Source of the DNA: a virus
Virus record (IMG/VR): IMGVR_UViG_3300025476_000007
Location: 1-29,804 of that record
DNA length: 29,804 nucleotides
Direction: 5' to 3' (one strand)
Under the pieces are notes generated by a model that saw nothing but the letters and a program-made list of their open reading frames with translations, did not search any database and was not told where the DNA came from. Each line of letters starts with the position of its first letter. Within the stretch, counting starts at the first letter, position 1. Positions 3,181 through 29,804 of the stretch are shown here, in pieces. A program made the position numbers and the translations under genes.

Positions 3181-4311
3181 TTACTTCCTCATGGGCATTA
3201 GGATATCGAGATTGCCATTGAAAGACTTGATAGCAACGGGACCACCACTTGAACAACCTGATTGCCTGAGTAACGTCAAGTTGTCAGTATGATCGATAAG
3301 CTCAACGAGGTAGTTCCTGTTGAGTATGATCTCAAAGTCTTCAGGAAATGTTCCCTTGAAGTTGCCTGTAGTGGTGTTACCTTCGGAGTCTTTACGAAAG
3401 ATATTAATCCCGGAACAATTGGATTTGATGGTGACACCTTTATTTTTCTCATATTCCTTCTTGCTGATATTTAATCCCTTGAGAAACTTCCTTGTTTCCT
3501 TTGCCGGCAACGTGCAAGTTTCCTTCAAGTCTACAGGGATGACTTTGTTGTATTCCGGATATTCACCATCCATAAGGCGGCAAGTCCAAACCATAGTTCG
3601 AGACAAGTTGGATATCATGATCCGCTTCGCTGTGACGTAACCTTGAATGTAACCTGAAGTCCCCTTGAAAAACACTTCAAGGTGTTTTATCCCGGACCTA
3701 GGTATGATAACTGGTGTCTGAAGTTGGTTAAACACCTGTGGAATAGTACGCGTAGCAAGTCGGTGTCCATCAGTTGCAACTAACAAGTTGGTTTTGCTAT
3801 CCAGGTAGATCCCGTTAAGGTTAAACCTGGAGTCGTCCGCACTTGCACAATAAAGGATACCGGCAAGGATGTTGATATCGGTGTTTTCACCAGTGCCAGT
3901 ATCATGTCCTTCAGGCGTGTGGTAAAAGTCAAACGTTGGGAAGTCTTCAGCTGGAATCGTTTGAATCCTAGTTGAAGCTGATCCGGATACTGATTCCATG
4001 ATGTACGCGTAAGAATGTTCGTCAATAGGCTTGCGGATCCTAATTGAATCGGTAGCATCCAGGCTATTACTAAAAGAATTCAAGGCTTCATAAGGCAATG
4101 CCCGCCTGAATTCAGTTTCAATATCCAGGTCCAGGCTTGCGTTGAGTTGAATTCTAACACCAGTGTCAAGGTTAGTTGCGTAGAGGTAAACGGCTCCTGA
4201 TGGTGTTGATTCAATAAGGACATGGTTAAGGATAGGCAAGTAAACCTTGCCGGATACGATAGGCTTGATACGCTTCAAGGCATCCTGAAGATCGTTGTTG
4301 TGAATTCTCAT
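3181..4311 (-). CDS. dnaN: DNA polymerase III beta subunit-like sliding clamp
   Basis: This 376-residue protein is close to the usual 366-380 for bacterial clamps. It should encircle DNA as a dimer of three-domain subunits and tether a polymerase. Recognisable motifs are NLLVATDGHRLATR in the middle domain, MDGEYPEYNKVIP at the start of the third domain (cellular form: GxFPDYxxVIP), and the terminal ILMPMRK (compare the clamp ending in MPMRL). The ATG at 4311 is chosen over upstream ATGs because GAAAGGAAACA lies just before it. The window has no DNA polymerase, so the clamp may serve a host or phage polymerase encoded elsewhere. A clamp of full cellular type is uncommon in phages of moderate size. 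Confidence 0.93.
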   Translation of the reverse strand: MRIHNNDLQDALKRIKPIVSGKVYLPILNHVLIESTPSGAVYLYATNLDTGVRIQLNASLDLDIETEFRRALPYEALNSFSNSLDATDSIRIRKPIDEHSYAYIMESVSGSASTRIQTIPAEDFPTFDFYHTPEGHDTGTGENTDINILAGILYCASADDSRFNLNGIYLDSKTNLLVATDGHRLATRTIPQVFNQLQTPVIIPRSGIKHLEVFFKGTSGYIQGYVTAKRIMISNLSRTMVWTCRLMDGEYPEYNKVIPVDLKETCTLPAKETRKFLKGLNISKKEYEKNKGVTIKSNCSGINIFRKDSEGNTTTGNFKGTFPEDFEIILNRNYLVELIDHTDNLTLLRQSGCSSGGPVAIKSFNGNLDILMPMRK

Positions 4312-4357
4312 AGTGTTTCCTTTCAATGGGACATAAACAGGCTTTAACACCTGAAGA

Positions 4358-4384
4358 TTGCCCTGGTAGCTAAGTCCAGGGCAA
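4358..4384. promoter_or_regulatory. Perfect stem-loop ahead of the sliding-clamp gene
   Basis: TTGCCCTGG and CCAGGGCAA form a perfect 9-bp inverted repeat with a 9-nt loop, between the gene at 4400 and the dnaN start. No T-run follows on either strand, so it is not a standard terminator. An mRNA-processing site, attenuator or protein-binding site is possible. Confidence 0.6.
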
Positions 4385-4399
4385 GGTTTCAAGAGTTAA

Positions 4400-8439: not shown

Positions 8440-8744
8440 AGCGGCTCCAGTCCGAATCCCCCCATACCACAAGGCTGAGGCAGCTCCTCGGCATACCAAC
8501 CGTCCAAGGGGAGCAGGTGCCTGGTTGGAGGCTTATTGTTGTCAACGATAAGCTGAATTATGTGATTGTAATCACTGAGACTAAGGGTTCTGGGGAAGAT
8601 CGGGGTTAGGTCGTTCTCAAGGCCCTTAACCCCATCATGGAAGACAGTCGTGTGTTGCGCTGCCCAAACCGCCCACAGGAGGGAACCTTTTGTAGTCTGA
8701 ACATATTGATAGTCTACTTCAGGGTAATTCCATTTTTGTATCAT
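8436..8744 (-). CDS. Hypothetical protein, 102 residues
   Basis: It begins MIQKWNYPEVDYQYVQTTKG, contains SLLWAVWAAQHTTVFHDGVK and ends with the Gly/Pro-rich CGMGGFGLEPL. The ATG at 8744 forms an ATGA overlap with the upstream stop and has GGAGGAG before it. No family is recognised. Confidence 0.72.
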   Translation of the reverse strand: MIQKWNYPEVDYQYVQTTKGSLLWAVWAAQHTTVFHDGVKGLENDLTPIFPRTLSLSDYNHIIQLIVDNNKPPTRHLLPLDGWYAEELPQPCGMGGFGLEPL

Positions 8745-9124
8745 TTCTCCTCCCATCTCGAGCACCACCAGTCAGGGGTGTGGCGTACTGCATGAGGATC
8801 ATAATGACAGTCAATGTTTTTGTAGTCGTTTATTGGTGTCCCCCATTTACAACTATCACAGACTCGCTCCCGAGGTTCAGGTATCTTCTCCAGGGGAGAC
8901 GTTTCAAGGACTGCAATCCTAATGTTGCACTGATTCACCCTGTCGGTTAGCATTATCACTGTGTCCTCGAGCCGCTTCAATCTCTCTGCCCTGGCCCAGA
9001 CTTCCTCACATTCAGCCCAGTCTGGATCAGACAAGGGAAACGTAGTTGAGGAATTAAGGGACTCTTTGGCAACAAACTGCCTCCCATATTCATCACGGAC
9101 AAATTTGCCTTCCTTAATCGACAT
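8741..9124 (-). CDS. Coiled-coil protein with a C-terminal four-cysteine motif
   Basis: This 127-residue protein starts MSIKEGKFVRDEYGRQFVAK. Residues about 35-85 form a coiled coil (ERLKRLEDTVIMLTDRVNQC, then IRIAVLE). The C terminus carries CDSCKWG, a Cys in NIDCHYDP and DWWCSRWEE, one of the clearest copies of the repeated signature. GGAGGGAGG precedes the ATG. The coiled coil suggests an oligomer that presents the Cys domain. It overlaps the neighbours by 11 and 4 bp. Confidence 0.8.
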   Translation of the reverse strand: MSIKEGKFVRDEYGRQFVAKESLNSSTTFPLSDPDWAECEEVWARAERLKRLEDTVIMLTDRVNQCNIRIAVLETSPLEKIPEPRERVCDSCKWGTPINDYKNIDCHYDPHAVRHTPDWWCSRWEEK

Positions 9125-9389
9125 TGCCTCCCTCCTTCCGCTCCTCTGCTTCTCTATCCATTCTGTCCTTAGTTCGAAGCAGGACATAGATGTCTACCAA
9201 CTTCTGAGGCATGACATTCGCCATGTAAGGCTCACCGGGGATTTCGAAAAGCCAGTTGCCATTTGAACAATAGGATGTTGGTTCATAGATGAGGCCTGTT
9301 GCATGTCTGCATTGGTCCCCATCGCGGCAAGGATCGTTCCATATGCAGCTTTTGCAGTTGACATCTGCCAGTTTGGTAACGTAGTTCAT
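9114..9389 (-). CDS. Four-cysteine motif protein, 91 residues
   Basis: The N terminus carries CKSCIWNDPC, DQCRHATG and SYCSNGNWLF, the repeated Cys signature with one additional Cys. The rest is a basic/acidic helix ending in EERKEGGNVD. The ATG at 9389 has AAAGGAGA at good spacing; the longer frame to 9443 lacks one. Function unknown. Confidence 0.78.
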   Translation of the reverse strand: MNYVTKLADVNCKSCIWNDPCRDGDQCRHATGLIYEPTSYCSNGNWLFEIPGEPYMANVMPQKLVDIYVLLRTKDRMDREAEERKEGGNVD

Positions 9390-23461: not shown

Positions 23462-24211
23462 ATGTCCCCTGAGACACAGTCCGCAATGGACGAAAACCAA
23501 GTATTAGATGAGGGGGTAGGCGATTCTGGATCCGATGCTGAAGAGCAGAGTCAAGAAATCACTACCGAGGAAGTAAAGTCACAGGCCCCTAGTAAATTCT
23601 GGGGTAGGTATAGTTCGGAAGACGAAGCAAGGATGGCACATGAGCAGATAGTCAACACCTTGCAGCATGTTTATAACGAGAAACAAGCGGCTGATAAAGC
23701 ACAGCAGGTTGCCTATCAGCAAGAGATGCAACGACGGGCCTCGGTTCCGATTGAGCAGCGGCCCATGGAAGAGGACGAGGAGCTATTTTTAAAGAGATAT
23801 AAGGAAAACGTTGACAACAAGAAATTCACAGAGGCTCTGCTTCTACTGAAACGGGACATCGAAGGCAAGAGCATGAAGAATGCCGCTGAGATAGCTCGGG
23901 CAGTATATCAGGAAGCAGCTAGTCAAAATGAGGCACCTAAACGGAGCAAGCAAGAGTTTCTCAACAACCAAGAACTGGCGGACCTACACCCGGTTGCCGA
24001 TGCCGCGATTATGTTGGATCAGGTGCTCTCACCATACGGTTACAAAAAAAGCGATGTCCTTCAGTTGATGAGAAACATCCAGGGCGCCGCACCAAAGAGA
24101 AAGAATCTCGGCATGGAAGAGCCTTCAAAATCTTCTTGGGCAGATCTCAGTGACGGAGACATCGACAAGAAGGCACGAAGCTGGATGAAAACCATGCTGG
24201 GAGCCAAATAG
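23462..24211 (+). CDS. Scaffold-like protein
   Basis: This 249-residue protein has a highly acidic first 45 residues. A long helical, Gln/Glu/Lys-rich middle (QIVNTLQHVYNEKQAADKAQ) follows, and the C terminus (DIDKKARSWMKTMLGAK) is basic and helical. Composition, absence of cysteine, and position directly before the major capsid gene fit a head scaffolding protein that templates shell assembly and then leaves. GGAGAG precedes the ATG. No protease motif is seen. Confidence 0.72.
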   Translation: MSPETQSAMDENQVLDEGVGDSGSDAEEQSQEITTEEVKSQAPSKFWGRYSSEDEARMAHEQIVNTLQHVYNEKQAADKAQQVAYQQEMQRRASVPIEQRPMEEDEELFLKRYKENVDNKKFTEALLLLKRDIEGKSMKNAAEIARAVYQEAASQNEAPKRSKQEFLNNQELADLHPVADAAIMLDQVLSPYGYKKSDVLQLMRNIQGAAPKRKNLGMEEPSKSSWADLSDGDIDKKARSWMKTMLGAK

Positions 24212-24245
24212 TTTGAGATAATGTAACAGAAAAGGAGTAAGGAAA

Positions 24246-25487
24246 ATGACTGCTTGGGCAACGCAAAGCGACTTCATGAAACTCTGGACTCAGAGTGGAC
24301 AGGTTGCTGAAAGAAAGCTACAAAAGTTTTTGCTGGCTGGGCTTGATGAGATCTCCAAGGCCAAGTGTGACATCGCATCCAAGATCAAAAAAGCCGAGTC
24401 TATTTCCACACCAGTTATCCGTTGGATGGAAGAGTACGATTATCCGACACAGTTGACGGCAACCTGGAATGGAAGCACCACGCTTACTATCGCAGGAAAC
24501 CTTTTCAATGCAGCGGTAACGCTTGAGAACATCCGTAAGATCGTCCGAGTTGGAACCATCCTTGAGAGACGAAGTGACGGTGTTCAGTTGAAAGTCTCCG
24601 CGGTAACCGGGATTGATGACGGAGCCCCCTTTGCGGCAACTGTTGGGCTTTACGGCAACACCACGGGCTCATTAGATGGTGCGGATGTTGTTTGGGAAAT
24701 CATATCTGAGGTTTGGAGCGACTACAAAGAGGTAGATGAAACCAGATCTCTCGATAGAACCTTCCGAGAAGTGGGCACGCAGATCTGGGCCGAGACTTTT
24801 GACTTGCCTTGGACCAGAAAAAACACCTCGTACGAGTTGGTGAAGAACGAAGAAGATCACCAAATTAAAAAGCTCCTGGAGAAACTCAGAAGGCATACCT
24901 CGATGGCGCTCCTAAGAGGCCGTCCTTATTATTCTTCCTCGTACAAGTACGGGAACCAAACTGAAGAGTCAACGATGCTCGGTTTGATTACCTGGCCTGA
25001 GATAACGCAGGCGGAATGCGCCGATACTAATGTGTATGTGGCAGCGGCAGGTGCGGAAATCTCCAAGTCTTACCTCAACGATCTCATTAGGAATATGTGG
25101 CTTGATGAGAACGCGGACTTCGGACAGGGCGACTGGTGGATCGTATGTCATCCGCTCGTGGCGAAGTACATCATGGAATTTGATGCGAACTACAGAAGGA
25201 TGACTCAGGATGCCACCACTGTCGGCTACAGTGTGAATGTTTTCGATAGCGACATTGGCAAGTCCTTCCCAGTAGTTTCGGATCAGTACTGGCGCCCCGA
25301 TGTGCTCCAGGTTGTGGACTTCTCAAAAACCTCTTACGGCTACTACAATAACGATGAGATGACTCGTAAGAAAATCGAGACAGCGGGCCGCTTCGACAGA
25401 TGGCTGCTCACCTTCCAGACTTATGGCCTTGTTGTTCGTGAGCCTCGCCGATCCATCGGCATGATCTACGGCCTAGCAACTTCATAA
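24246..25487 (+). CDS. Major capsid protein (DUF5309/SU10-like)
   Basis: This 413-residue protein has features of the DUF5309/SU10-type shell proteins: STPVIRWMEEYDYPTQLTAT, VWSDYKEVDETRSLDRTFRE, TSMALLRGRPYYSSS and GDWWIVCHPLVAKYIMEF, then the C-terminal QTYGLVVREPRRSIGMIYGL. An HK97-like fold is expected. It follows the scaffold-like gene and has AAAAGGAG upstream. Codon use is rich in GC-ending codons compared with the fibre genes, as usual for highly expressed capsid genes. A stem-loop follows the stop. Confidence 0.82.
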   Translation: MTAWATQSDFMKLWTQSGQVAERKLQKFLLAGLDEISKAKCDIASKIKKAESISTPVIRWMEEYDYPTQLTATWNGSTTLTIAGNLFNAAVTLENIRKIVRVGTILERRSDGVQLKVSAVTGIDDGAPFAATVGLYGNTTGSLDGADVVWEIISEVWSDYKEVDETRSLDRTFREVGTQIWAETFDLPWTRKNTSYELVKNEEDHQIKKLLEKLRRHTSMALLRGRPYYSSSYKYGNQTEESTMLGLITWPEITQAECADTNVYVAAAGAEISKSYLNDLIRNMWLDENADFGQGDWWIVCHPLVAKYIMEFDANYRRMTQDATTVGYSVNVFDSDIGKSFPVVSDQYWRPDVLQVVDFSKTSYGYYNNDEMTRKKIETAGRFDRWLLTFQTYGLVVREPRRSIGMIYGLATS

Positions 25488-25495
25488 ACTACAAG

Positions 25496-25517
25496 GGCAC
25501 GGATTAACTTCCGTGCC
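25496..25517 (+). terminator. Stem-loop after the capsid gene
   Basis: GGCACGGA and TCCGTGCC form an 8-bp GC-rich stem with a 6-nt loop, 9 nt after the capsid stop. No T-run follows. It could be a partial terminator, or a 3' stabilising structure that sets capsid mRNA apart from the downstream fibre genes. Confidence 0.55.
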
Positions 25518-25541
25518 TAACTACCTAAAAGGAGACGGAAA

Positions 25542-26702
25542 ATGATTTGGTTCGGGACAGGATCTCCAAAACCAATAGTCTATACCAACAGTGCAACACT
25601 CAAGTCTCGACACTTCTCTGTTGAGCAACTTCTGGTTGCGTCCGTGGCGTCAAAAACCTACACATTGCCGACGCCTATCAAGGATCTTGCCGGTAAGCCG
25701 ACATGGTTTGTAAACAACAGCACGGGATCTCAGACACTATCGGGAGCTTTTGTGGGGGGCTCGTCTGAAACGGTTCTAACAAAAACAATGGTTTGCCTTA
25801 TGGTATTGCCAGTATCCCCAGGCGTTTTTAAGTGGTTTGCGTTTGGAATAACCAGTGTAACGGCGGGCCTGGCTGAAATCGTGATGGATTATGTGGACAC
25901 GATGTTTCAGGCCGGAACACACACGGGTTTGACGGTTACCTATAACGATGCTCAGGACAAAGAATCTATTGCTGTAACCTACGGTGCGGTAGGGGACATT
26001 GCTGCCATAGGTGCCCTGACATCTTCTGGGGCAGCCGGAGCTGTATCAGGGAAGGCTGCGAATGCGGGGCATGTTCATCCAATGGTGTCGCATCCGCACA
26101 GTGGCATAACTGACGGTGGGTTAATTCCCTGGGCCAACATCGATAAAACCACAAGTTCGATTGCAAACATTACTACTAAGGCGCACACCGATCTTACTGC
26201 AATAGGCACCAATACTCATGCTCAGATTGATACGGCACTGGGGACTACAATACCAGCCTATTTCAATGTCTCAACTGGTCACGATCACGACGGGGTTGAT
26301 TCAAAACTTCTGCCTATCCCCTCCATAGTGGAGTCTGTTGAGTGGACTACGTTTACAAGCACGCTGGTATTCACCACAGCGACACCTACTGTAACAGTTA
26401 TTGCAAGATACCGCAGATTAGGGAAGAGTGTGGAGTTTTTGATTGACATAACAACCGCTGACGGGCTTGACGGTGTTTTTGTTTCTGCCACGCTTCCGGT
26501 GGTTCCTAAAGCCATAGATGCCTACGTGCCTGTTTCGTACACCAAACTGATAAATGCAACTTACACCACTGGCAAAGCGATAGAGATTGATGCAGCTAAT
26601 GCTACCCCGGCCAATAGGATCGTCAAGGCTAGGGAGACTATTGCCCTTACCACTGGGAATGCGTGCAGACTGTCCATCCGTGGTTCCTATGAGGTAGCGT
26701 AA
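25542..26702 (+). CDS. Fibre- or head-decoration-like structural protein
   Basis: This 386-residue protein has a beta-rich N-terminal domain (1-110). A segment with repeated His/Gly motifs (GKAANAGHVHPMVSHPHSGI, then THAQIDTAL and STGHDHDGVDSK) follows, like the trimeric shafts of phage fibres where His pairs bind metal. A beta-sandwich-like C-terminal domain (about 265-386) completes it. Position right after the capsid gene suggests a head fibre or tail fibre component. AAAAGGAG precedes the ATG. No enzymatic motif is seen. Confidence 0.72.
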   Translation: MIWFGTGSPKPIVYTNSATLKSRHFSVEQLLVASVASKTYTLPTPIKDLAGKPTWFVNNSTGSQTLSGAFVGGSSETVLTKTMVCLMVLPVSPGVFKWFAFGITSVTAGLAEIVMDYVDTMFQAGTHTGLTVTYNDAQDKESIAVTYGAVGDIAAIGALTSSGAAGAVSGKAANAGHVHPMVSHPHSGITDGGLIPWANIDKTTSSIANITTKAHTDLTAIGTNTHAQIDTALGTTIPAYFNVSTGHDHDGVDSKLLPIPSIVESVEWTTFTSTLVFTTATPTVTVIARYRRLGKSVEFLIDITTADGLDGVFVSATLPVVPKAIDAYVPVSYTKLINATYTTGKAIEIDAANATPANRIVKARETIALTTGNACRLSIRGSYEVA

Positions 26703-26965
26703 TGTTGAATTCACTACAATGGTTAGCATTAGCACCAAAGAGGGCTCAAATAGAGGCGGCACTCCAGGTTTTGGGGGTGCCCCTCATTGGATGGATGAAT
26801 CATGTGCCCATGTTTAAGGAAGGGTTTAATCCGAATTGGGATGAGATAGAAAACATCGCAACCGCAGTTAATACGAAGGGAGTAGGCCAATGGAAAAAGC
26901 CCGAAAAGGTGCCGGAAAAGGCAAAGGCACCAAAAAAGGCGGTAAAGGCTGTTAAGAAGAAATAA
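26702..26965 (+). CDS. Small protein with Lys/Pro/Ala-rich tail, 87 residues
   Basis: It starts MLNSLQWLALAPKRAQIEAA and ends in a lysine-rich low-complexity tail (VPEKAKAPKKAVKAVKKK) like that of histone H1-type or DNA-condensing proteins. The ATG overlaps the upstream stop by 1 nt (TAATG). The tail may bind DNA or a capsid surface; the N-terminal 65 residues are unrecognised. Confidence 0.72.
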   Translation: MLNSLQWLALAPKRAQIEAALQVLGVPLIGWMNHVPMFKEGFNPNWDEIENIATAVNTKGVGQWKKPEKVPEKAKAPKKAVKAVKKK

Positions 26966-27024
26966 CCTTCCTCTCGTCCTGCTAAGCCTGGGGGAATCTA
27001 GGGGGATAGCAAAAGGAGTATAAA

Positions 27025-27945
27025 ATGGCGCAAATTCCTCACGCAAATTACACACTTACCAAACGATTCACCAATGTTGGTTCACTTGGGCAGGCTATCT
27101 CATTCAAGGAATGGGCTATTAAAGGAATAGCTATTCACTTCGAGGGATCTACCTGTGTTGGGATAGTAAAGGGCTCTGGCACTGTTACAGGCAGCGGAGA
27201 CGCACACCTTACCAGTGATGGAATAACTCTCACTCTGGATGGTATGTGGGATGCTGGAGATACCATAACTACACTTTACACACCTACGGCAAATGGCAGT
27301 GATAAAATAGTAAACGGTGCAATGGCAACTGATTCAGGGGTAGCATGGGCCAAAGGTACTGGATGGGTGTTGAATGGAGTTGCTACACATACCACGGGTA
27401 ATGCCACAACCCTTGTTGAAACCACATCCACGGTTGTCAATGGCGAACAATATCTCTTTGTCTACACACTAGCCTCCACAACCACAGCGGGGGTTTTAAC
27501 ACCATCAGCGGGAGGCGTGACTCTTACTACTAGAACTGGAGTGTTAGCTCTTCCAACTACAGTAAGTCCATCAGGTGGTTCAGGATGTACCATTGCTGTT
27601 GCTTCGGTGAGTTCAACTGGTGAGGCTCTTACTGTTACAGTAGTTGCCGGGGGAACGGGATATGCAGTGGGAGATGTGTTAAGCGTTACTTTTGCCGCAG
27701 CTACGAGGCCACTGAAGCTGAAAGTTTTGACGTTATCCACCACGGCTGTTGCCACTGTTATCATCGTAGACAATGGTTTGGGGTATGAAGTTACTGGAGC
27801 CTCTAAGACTTACTCAGAAGAGTTTACGGCGATTAGCACAGCTAAAGTTACTTTCACAAGTGATGCAACCTGGGCCGGGACTATTGATGACGTGAAAATG
27901 TATCGAGTCTACCCATGTGTATGTAGTATTGTGGCATGGCGATAA
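27025..27945 (+). CDS. Beta-rich virion surface protein candidate
   Basis: This 306-residue protein is dominated by Thr/Val/Gly/Ser beta strands. The middle (NGAMATDSGVAWAKGTGWVL, about residues 97-170) resembles carbohydrate-binding-module-like jelly-roll domains found in phage virion proteins. The part with VVAGGTGYAVGDVL (about 210-250) has the GTGY..GDvl motif common in phage structural proteins. AAAAGGAG precedes the ATG. It lies directly upstream of the DGR target gene, 10 bp away, and could be the virion-anchored partner of the variable protein. Confidence 0.72.
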   Translation: MAQIPHANYTLTKRFTNVGSLGQAISFKEWAIKGIAIHFEGSTCVGIVKGSGTVTGSGDAHLTSDGITLTLDGMWDAGDTITTLYTPTANGSDKIVNGAMATDSGVAWAKGTGWVLNGVATHTTGNATTLVETTSTVVNGEQYLFVYTLASTTTAGVLTPSAGGVTLTTRTGVLALPTTVSPSGGSGCTIAVASVSSTGEALTVTVVAGGTGYAVGDVLSVTFAAATRPLKLKVLTLSTTAVATVIIVDNGLGYEVTGASKTYSEEFTAISTAKVTFTSDATWAGTIDDVKMYRVYPCVCSIVAWR

Positions 27946-27955
27946 GGAGGTAACA

Positions 27956-29032
27956 ATGGCTGGTACAATTAATATAACAAGCGGCGGTGGGGCTGTGGCT
28001 TACATCAAGTCTCATTACAATCATGATACGTCATGGACTGGTGGTGCTGCAACTTCGGCTACAACTAGGCGAACCATCAATTCCCCGAATGAAGTTGAAG
28101 TTAAGATTGACACGGTGGGGTTGAAGCTCGCCACTCAAACAACTCTTGATCTTAATACTGCTGGTTCATGGGATACTGTTTCTGGTACTGATTACACAAC
28201 TGCTGCAAATAGGGCAGGTAAAAATTTCTATATTTACATGTGTCAACCTGTATCTGGTACTGTACCGGTGATTAAACTATCAGCTAACTCAACGGTTCCG
28301 TCTGGTTATTCTGCATCTACCTCCAGAAAAGTAGGTGGTTTCCATTGTTTATGCGTAGCAGTTGGGACTATATCTGGACACACGCTTACAGGTTATTTGG
28401 CTGGCGACATACTTCCACTTTCAGTGTGGGATTTATGGCATAGAGCAGAATCTGGTAATGAAGGTATGGTTTATGCTCCGGGTATTAGTGCTTGGGTAGA
28501 TATTTACTTAACAACTGGTTCAATAACAGTACCAACTTCTGTAAATAACGCTACAATTCTTAATGCGATAACGCAGTATGCTTTTGTAGATACTCTTGCA
28601 TTAGTAAACAAACGTCTTTTGTTTGACCACGAATTTACTTATATTGCAACTGGTTCAAACGAAGCTACTAATATTACTGCAAGTGCAGATCCTGTTACAA
28701 CTTCAGGACATTCAGATACTGCTGGTAGGAGAATGATTTCCAACATTGGTTGTGAAGATTGTGCTGGAGTTCTTTGGCAATGGCTAAATGATTCTCTTAC
28801 TCCAGTCCAAGGTGTTGATTATGCTACAGGTGTAGCATTTGGATGGAAAGATGTCACAGGTACCAGAGGTCAAGTTTATTCCCAAGGAACTTATGGGTTT
28901 ATGAAGCTGGTTGCCGGTGGTGCTTGGGATTATGGTGCTCGTTGTGGGTCACGGGCGCGTAATTTGTATCATTGGGCGTGGCTTGCGCATACGTCTATCG
29001 GTAGTCGCGCGCTGAGTAATAAACGGATTTAA
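27956..29032 (+). CDS. DGR target (variable) protein, probable receptor-binding protein
   Basis: This protein has 358 residues. The start at 27956 is set by AAGGAGG 5 nt upstream; the frame from 27917 has none. The N-terminal 180 residues are Thr/Ser/Gly-rich, probably a virion-attachment domain. The C-terminal part contains SNIGCEDCAGVLWQWLNDSL and ends GGAWDYGARCGSRARNLYHW, then AWLAHTSIGSRALSNKRI. The W..G..CGSRARN ... IG.RA order is the signature of C-type-lectin-fold variable proteins of diversity-generating retroelements. The variable repeat occupies its last codons (28906-29014) up to 15 nt before the stop codon. The product should bind host surface ligands, with about 16 varied codons forming the binding face. 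Confidence 0.9.
   Translation: MAGTINITSGGGAVAYIKSHYNHDTSWTGGAATSATTRRTINSPNEVEVKIDTVGLKLATQTTLDLNTAGSWDTVSGTDYTTAANRAGKNFYIYMCQPVSGTVPVIKLSANSTVPSGYSASTSRKVGGFHCLCVAVGTISGHTLTGYLAGDILPLSVWDLWHRAESGNEGMVYAPGISAWVDIYLTTGSITVPTSVNNATILNAITQYAFVDTLALVNKRLLFDHEFTYIATGSNEATNITASADPVTTSGHSDTAGRRMISNIGCEDCAGVLWQWLNDSLTPVQGVDYATGVAFGWKDVTGTRGQVYSQGTYGFMKLVAGGAWDYGARCGSRARNLYHWAWLAHTSIGSRALSNKRI
28906..29014 (+). repeat. DGR variable repeat (VR)
   Basis: This 109-bp copy of the template repeat at 29089-29197 differs at 21 sites. Every one is an A in the template replaced by G, C or T; all 77 non-A positions match. It lies at the 3' end of the target gene. The last 19 bp (from about 28997) contain GTCGCGCGCTGA, a GC-rich element with only two A-to-G differences from the template, and are a likely initiation-of-mutagenic-homing (IMH) site. 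Confidence 0.95.
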
Positions 29033-29038
29033 CGAGTT

Positions 29039-29066
29039 AGGTCCAGCCCTTGCGAGGGTAAGACCT
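29039..29066 (+). promoter_or_regulatory. Stem-loop downstream of the variable repeat
   Basis: AGGTC ... GACCT (5 bp) encloses, after symmetrical 3-nt internal loops, CCCT-TGCG-AGGG (4-bp stem, tetraloop). Hairpin or cruciform structures shortly after the VR aid target recognition in characterised DGRs (for example Bordetella phage BPP-1). This one lies 25 bp beyond the VR end and 22 bp before the template, so it may instead belong to the template RNA. Confidence 0.65.
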
Positions 29067-29088
29067 GATAGGTAGATAGTTATAAAAT

Positions 29089-29197
29089 GCTGATTGCCGG
29101 TAGTAATTGGAATAATGGTGCTAATTGTGGATCACAGGCACGTAATTTGAATAATTGGACGTGGAATGCGAATACGAATATCGGTAGTCACGCACTG
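29089..29197 (+). repeat. DGR template repeat (TR)
   Basis: This 109-bp invariant template contains 32 adenines, including ten AAT codons in the register of the target gene. AAT is the preferred DGR template codon because changes at its first two positions reach many residues without making a stop. 21 of 32 adenines differ in the VR. If read in the target frame it gives AGSNWNNGANCGSQARNLNN and onward, clearly the undiversified form of the target's C terminus. It lies 131 nt before the reverse transcriptase start. Confidence 0.95.
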
Positions 29198-29328
29198 ATA
29201 CATGAAAGTAGCCAAACTTCATGGCTGAACTATTTACCTTGTTCCTCTACGGAGCAAAATACAAAGCGAAGGAGGGGGTAGGATAGTAGGTAGCAATACT
29301 GAAACACCCATCTCCTCAGAACACTAAA

Positions 29329-29804
29329 ATGAAAAGACACAACAACTTATTTGACCAAATTGTTTCTTACGAGAACCTAGAGTTAGCTTATCAAAAAGCT
29401 AAGAAAGGCAAGAGCAAGAAGATTTCTGTGATTAAGTTTTCACAAAATATTGAGGAGCGTTTACTTAAGATTCAAGAATCTTTAGTCAATAAGACTTTTA
29501 CTACGTCTCATTATACAACCAAGAAGGTTTATGAACCCAAAGAAAGATTAATCCACGTATTGCCGTTTGCTCCGGATAGAATTGTTCAACATGCCATTAT
29601 GAATTTCCTCGAACCTATTTGGGATAATTTATTCATTTTTGATTCATATGCTTGTAGGATAGGTAAGGGGATTCACAAAGGTTCCCGTAGAACTATGGAG
29701 TTCGTTAGGAAGTACAAGTATTGTCTCAAGTGCGATGTGTCTAAATTCTATCCTTCTATCAACCACGACATTTTATATAAGATTATTTGTAAGAAGATAA
29801 GATG
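29329..29804 (+). CDS. DGR reverse transcriptase (3' truncated by window end)
   Basis: The first 158 residues are present, starting MKRHNNLFDQIVSYENLELA. The sequence has the N-terminal fingers of group II-intron/DGR-type reverse transcriptases: KERLIHVLPFAPDRIVQHAI, then SYACRIGKGIHKGSRRTM, then motif A, CLKCDVSKFYPSINHDIL, whose Asp binds catalytic metal. The YxDD motif lies beyond the window. The frame has a TAG at 29287 upstream, and the ATG at 29329 lacks an obvious Shine-Dalgarno site, so expression may be low. Position right after the template repeat assigns it to the DGR and not to a mobile intron. Confidence 0.93.
   Translation, partial: MKRHNNLFDQIVSYENLELAYQKAKKGKSKKISVIKFSQNIEERLLKIQESLVNKTFTTSHYTTKKVYEPKERLIHVLPFAPDRIVQHAIMNFLEPIWDNLFIFDSYACRIGKGIHKGSRRTMEFVRKYKYCLKCDVSKFYPSINHDILYKIICKKIR

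Follow-up and report, generated by a model that had tools for sequence, protein, structure and literature searches.

The window, by which we mean the whole 29,804-nucleotide stretch of viral DNA analysed here, ends in what we read, with a probability of about 95%, as a diversity-generating retroelement (DGR) of a tailed phage, which diversifies an Mtd-like tip protein and belongs to a clade that lacks Avd and has a probable OB-like helper. DGRs are machines for targeted diversification of proteins; most of what is known of how they work comes from BPP-1, which cannot do without Avd. The element of the window combines an adenine-only pair of template and variable repeats (TR and VR), an adjacent reverse transcriptase (RT) of DGR type and a location of the VR at the 3′ end of the target gene; the earlier note on this DNA had called it a DGR, an identification that these repeats, the type of RT and the Mtd homology of the target all uphold. 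The lack of Avd, the other conserved gene behind the RT in the clade and the loss of that gene in L002, a contig continuing the window, had escaped that note. With regard to the Avd-less viral clade, the RT grouped within it (97/97) and the TAGTA spacer stem was present, whereas the OB gene was absent from L002. As an element this DGR is new, and its lineage is a variant.

An adenine-only repeat pair and its Mtd-like target

The VR is found at positions 28906-29014 on the plus strand, ending five codons before the stop codon of the target gene, and the TR follows on the same strand at 29089-29197, with a distance of 183 bp from start to start. Ungapped alignment over 109/109 positions gave 21 differences, located at 21 of the 32 adenines of the TR and at none of its 77 other bases (hypergeometric p = 8.5e-15), exactly as the earlier note had counted. 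The substitutions from TR to VR were A>G at 11 sites, A>C at 6 and A>T at 4, altering 17 codons and 14 residues, and the similarity between the repeats stopped sharply at either end. All 10 AAY codons of the TR are AAT, no TR codon can be converted to a stop by an A-to-N change, and the protein variants that could arise through such changes number ~3.8e16. At six of the 21 changed sites (repeat positions 14, 48, 52, 71, 102 and 106), G was found in all of four related VRs, and these six are therefore probably fixed, or reflect how IMH and IMH* differ, and did not arise as separate mutations of recent date. The 3′ ends of TR and VR have a block in common with two fixed A/G differences, which makes them candidates for IMH* and IMH as judged by sequence. 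The same scan found no second A-only TR/VR pair in positions 1-24000 of the window.

The target gene (27956..29032, plus strand) encodes 358 residues and, like the RT start at 29329, lies where it had been placed before. Its product matched the second domain of Mtd in Pfam (mtd_2nd, 7.6e-18), the tail protein family phrog_11262 (9.5e-58), BPP-1 mtd in tblastn (3e-13) and Mtd in hhalign (probability 99.9, E 4.8e-31, 280 columns); unlike hhalign and Pfam, phmmer against the PDB gave no Mtd match. An AlphaFold2 model of the target built from 15 relatives reached a pLDDT of 46 and was not used, so the fold assignment is based on sequence homology. On that basis the target is an Mtd homologue of the C-type lectin type with a C-terminal VR, and its previous description as a C-type-lectin-like protein ending in the VR agrees with both the Pfam and hhalign results and the position of the repeat. 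Homology to Mtd also supports the reading of the product as a receptor-binding tip, which is the natural one and had likewise been proposed from the sequence.

Upstream of the target lies an ORF of 306 residues in the same late operon (27025..27945, plus strand; no family match), preceded by an SU10-type portal and a major capsid protein of the SU10 type (24246..25487, plus strand; Pfam SU10_MCP 1.4e-27), which puts the DGR in a structural operon. Searching 50,697 phage records by tblastn gave no match to the capsid protein. The window further encodes a beta clamp (3181-4392), DnaB, RecT and an integrase, which together suggest a bacterial host for the phage.

Reverse transcriptase, spacer RNA and rewriting in relatives

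The RT gene (29329..29804, plus strand) is cut by the end of the window after the N-terminal 158 residues, which matched phrog_1423 (1.4e-60). L002, an IMG/VR contig of 7.5 kb, equals positions 23967-29804 of the window save for two mismatches, both in the final 18 bases and a hint of strain variation, and it encodes a full RT of 324 residues (L002:5363-6337), the C-terminal half being known from L002 and not from the window. The YxDD motif that the earlier note had hoped to recover by extending the contig was found in this continuation as YCDD, together with a GNYTSQ motif. The best solved relative of the full RT was the BPP-1 DGR RT (8ub7, 1.7e-55), with a group II intron RT at 8e-16; residues 2-316 of the 324 align to the BPP-1 RT, and the catalytic motifs are intact. 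In the IQ-TREE phylogeny, the window RT fell into a 15-member clade of RTs from viruses and Melainabacteria (97/97) adjoining other DGR RTs, with group II RTs forming a separate clade (100/100) and with no labelled retron RT included in the tree. Scores against group II and retron models were far below the curated cut-offs. A grouping with group II introns or retrons had been named beforehand as evidence against a DGR; with the BPP-1 DGR RT as best match and the group II RTs apart, the enzyme is of the DGR type. Two plasmid RTs of unassigned type, from Vibrio and Yersinia, were also placed among the DGR RTs, on long branches.

An alignment of the spacer RNA between TR and RT (29198..29328, plus strand; 131 nt) from 12 clade loci contained invariant blocks, among them GCTG and TAGTA. 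In the window, stem arms at 29271-29279 and 29304-29315 surround the TAGTA at 29284-29288, and in the 12-locus alignment most pairs of this TAGTA-capped stem had changed on both sides, i.e. covaried. The window spacer has kept the blocks, but its stem requires a bulge to pair; the best ungapped register gives 7/9 pairs, a value within reach of shuffles. In BPP-1, this segment serves to recruit the RT-Avd complex and to prime cDNA synthesis (PMC12875486), and the clade spacer RNA is thus probably its counterpart. No Rfam match was found in the window. A stem-loop of 34 nt was predicted by ViennaRNA just after the target stop codon, 21 nt 3′ of the VR (29036..29069, plus strand), with a fold of -18.4 kcal/mol for positions 29033-29080. 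BPP-1 has a hairpin downstream of its VR, and this stem-loop is a candidate for a similar element, to which a corresponding function might be ascribed by analogy.

Most of the relatives that we found by their RT have an A-only TR/VR pair of their own, and those without one were mostly cut upstream. Direct evidence for A-targeted rewriting came from a sister group of four loci from four IMG samples (L005, L006, L008 and L009), the RTs of which are 61% identical to the window RT. These loci have an identical TR and 2077 identical bp downstream, L006 and L008 sharing 2216 identical bases upstream as well, and yet any two of their VRs show 16-18 differences, with all 24 variable sites corresponding to a template A. 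Because TRs and flanks are identical in these sister loci and the VRs differ at A positions only, the clade is active. The VRs of the window and L002, as the two copies at hand, were identical, with no variation within the window phage.

Absence of Avd, the OB-like gene and known systems

No Avd was detected with the Pfam bAvd model (PF22296) in the window, in L002 or in 11 records of the clade, among them vir525 with its 60 kb, and the model did detect its positive controls in BPP-1, BalMu-1, ACA1 and phiWae15. A home-made HMM from the control Avds, which also detects the held-out phiWae15, VHML and Mushu, likewise found none in the window or L002, and Avd was absent from the long clade members vir525 (60 kb) and the L026 record (57 kb). 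Such a gene would have only 74 nt of room between VR and TR, and 131 nt in the spacer before the RT. Most DGRs encode Avd, but not all of them do (PMC10053308).

Members of the clade instead have an OB-fold-like ORF of ~98 residues that starts at or inside the RT stop codon, following DGR RTs without Avd (L008:5704-6000, L014:7010-7312, L030:17336-17623 and L047:4529-4825). Searching the viral collection with the OB-like protein alone (alignment A2) gave 80 loci. At 79 of them a DGR-type RT preceded the gene in the same orientation (directly at 73 loci and within 370 nt at 6), and the 80th was cut by the contig end. Avd was found at none of the 80 loci, and an A-only TR/VR pair at 70 of them. 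Control pairs under the same rules were T-only at 2 loci, C-only at 0 and G-only at 7, the last of which are no surprise, since A-to-G changes appear as G-only when the pair is read in reverse. AlphaFold confidently modelled the protein (pLDDT 87) as a small beta barrel that gave VIA-align Z scores of 5.5-7.3 against SSB, PriB and RuvBL DII, middling values on which we would call it OB-like; Foldseek returned no match for the model at E < 0.001. No curated family naming the protein was found, PHROG 19665 (unknown function) being a weak match, and it showed no relation to bbp4 or ACA1 gp45, two ORFs downstream of Avd-type DGRs. Given its linkage to the RT, the OB-like protein probably takes the helper role in place of Avd. 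The open literature that we searched holds no description of an OB-like DGR helper, and the helper gene of this DGR lineage thus seems undescribed in searchable papers. Three Melainabacteria/Gastranaerophilales genomes (L040, L041 and L042) have an RT of the same clade together with the OB-like gene, probably in proviruses.

The window resembles the BPP-1 DGR (mtd-avd-TR-brt) in its Mtd-like target with a C-terminal VR, the TR between target and RT, the A-only differences and the DGR RT; it differs in the interval from VR to TR, which holds avd in BPP-1 but is 74 nt long and lacks Avd here, and in an RT from another DGR lineage. The closest annotated phage is vir525 (Caudoviricetes sp., BK063673, Methanosarcinales virus), with 56% identity in the RT and 49% in the target, which has the same gene order, no Avd and the same spacer RNA, but which carries an OB-like gene of ~96 residues directly after the RT and is otherwise a different virus with an annotated tail sheath. 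The DGR of ANMV-1 virus (KP703175) also has an Mtd-like target, no Pfam bAvd match and an OB-like gene after its own RT, but it belongs to an archaeal virus and its RT falls outside the window clade; the ANMV-1 paper draws an ORF labelled Avd (PMC4372165). Finally, the C-terminal part of the 434-residue RT of the Bacteroides hankyphage (L064) matches the OB-like family (2e-5), the domain here being fused to the RT and a separate Avd being annotated in the record.

In the mechanism that we propose for the window element, the TR (29089-29197) and the structured spacer (29198-29328) would be transcribed, and the RT (29329) would copy the TR into cDNA with misincorporation opposite adenines. The cDNA would then take the place of the VR (28906-29014) in the 3′-terminal part of the Mtd-like tail gene and leave the TR unchanged, so that the receptor-binding tip could take on about 4e16 forms at most. 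For priming and homing, this scheme follows what is inferred from BPP-1.

Alternative explanations and RT-less relatives

L002 encodes neither Avd nor the OB-like protein, an HNH gene following its RT instead; as the window ends inside the RT, the absence of the OB gene is read from L002, the only contig continuing it. In L097, a collinear contig from the same sample as L002, the order is target-TR-RT-OB-HNH-97aa gene, compared with target-TR-RT-HNH-97aa in L002, and the end of the L002 RT matches the leader of the 97-aa gene of L029 over 23 identical bases, ATAGGAGTAATATAATGGAAGGT (L002:6290-6345 versus L097:4470-4960 and L029:5515-5560). This match of the last RT codons points to recombination. 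With the OB gene missing in L002, the window's own copy need not be working at present; it may be inactive, it may be served in trans, or the continuation of the window may be unlike L002. The missing OB gene and the altered RT end, together with the identical VRs of the window and L002, would fit a decaying, once active DGR that recombined with an RT-less locus and thereby had its final RT codons exchanged, its OB gene deleted and its VR frozen. We regard such decay as a tentative and rather unlikely explanation, since the RT retains its catalytic motifs and all residues aligning to the BPP-1 RT, the comparison covers two copies that possibly come from related samples, the OB gene could be encoded elsewhere in the incomplete genome, and the two-base difference in the last 18 nt means that the continuations of window and L002 may differ.

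As the window is a fragment (29.8 kb), one could also imagine an ordinary DGR of BPP-1 type with avd in the missing part of the genome. The gaps around the TR have no space for it, though, and none was seen in vir525, the L026 record or the 80 OB loci with models that find Avd in BPP-1, BalMu-1, ACA1, phiWae15, VHML and Mushu, which makes this explanation highly improbable. Still harder to credit would be a duplicated gene end, i.e. a paralogous repeat, beside an unrelated RT from a group II intron or retron; the RT does score with group II and retron models, though below cut-off, but adenine-only differences (p 8e-15), the grouping of the window RT with DGR RTs and the A-only pairs in most RT-found relatives all argue against it. 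We thus favour a DGR of the Avd-less clade.

Mtd-like targets without any RT were found in L028 (989-2068) and in tandem on the 122-kb contig of L029 (4058-5461 and 5851-7047), about 80-86% identical to the window target, and neither record holds an RT, TR or OB gene, that of L029 included at its full 122 kb. Of the 77 non-A sites of the window TR, 76, 75 and 76 are the same in the VRs of L028 and of the two L029 targets, respectively, whereas 20, 18 and 21 of the 32 A sites differ; the 180 nt directly upstream of these VRs are 8-10% different from the window. By this pattern, the three VRs are written from almost the same template as the window TR, possibly in trans, or else by a DGR since lost or by one in an unassembled part. 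When viral contigs were searched with the TR end, A being read as N, the hits were confined to L002, L028 and the contig of L029. A wider interpretation, for which we consider the odds about even, is that a large Avd-less viral DGR clade uses a dedicated, undescribed OB-fold-like protein, of the type binding single-stranded nucleic acid, together with a clade-specific spacer RNA, with the window phage as a natural helper deletion and with RT-less phages of related communities having targets written, possibly in trans, from nearly the same template. If true, a clade visibly active without a recognisable Avd, and with another conserved helper gene and a conserved spacer RNA, would reveal which components are common to all such machines, and one more system could be reconstituted beside that of BPP-1.

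The conserved gene of ~97 residues comes after Mtd-like targets both in the presence and in the absence of a DGR (L002:7071-7364, L097:5637-5951, L028:2797-3090 and L029:5549-5839) and possibly encodes a tail accessory protein or chaperone; that it might be the OB protein was rejected, as both stand side by side in relatives. HNH-endonuclease-like genes, one of which was confirmed by PHROGs, also occur in the target region (L002:6337-7074; L028:261-986 and 2159-2800; L029:1973-2656 and 8526-9332) and may drive the exchange of target genes between phages.
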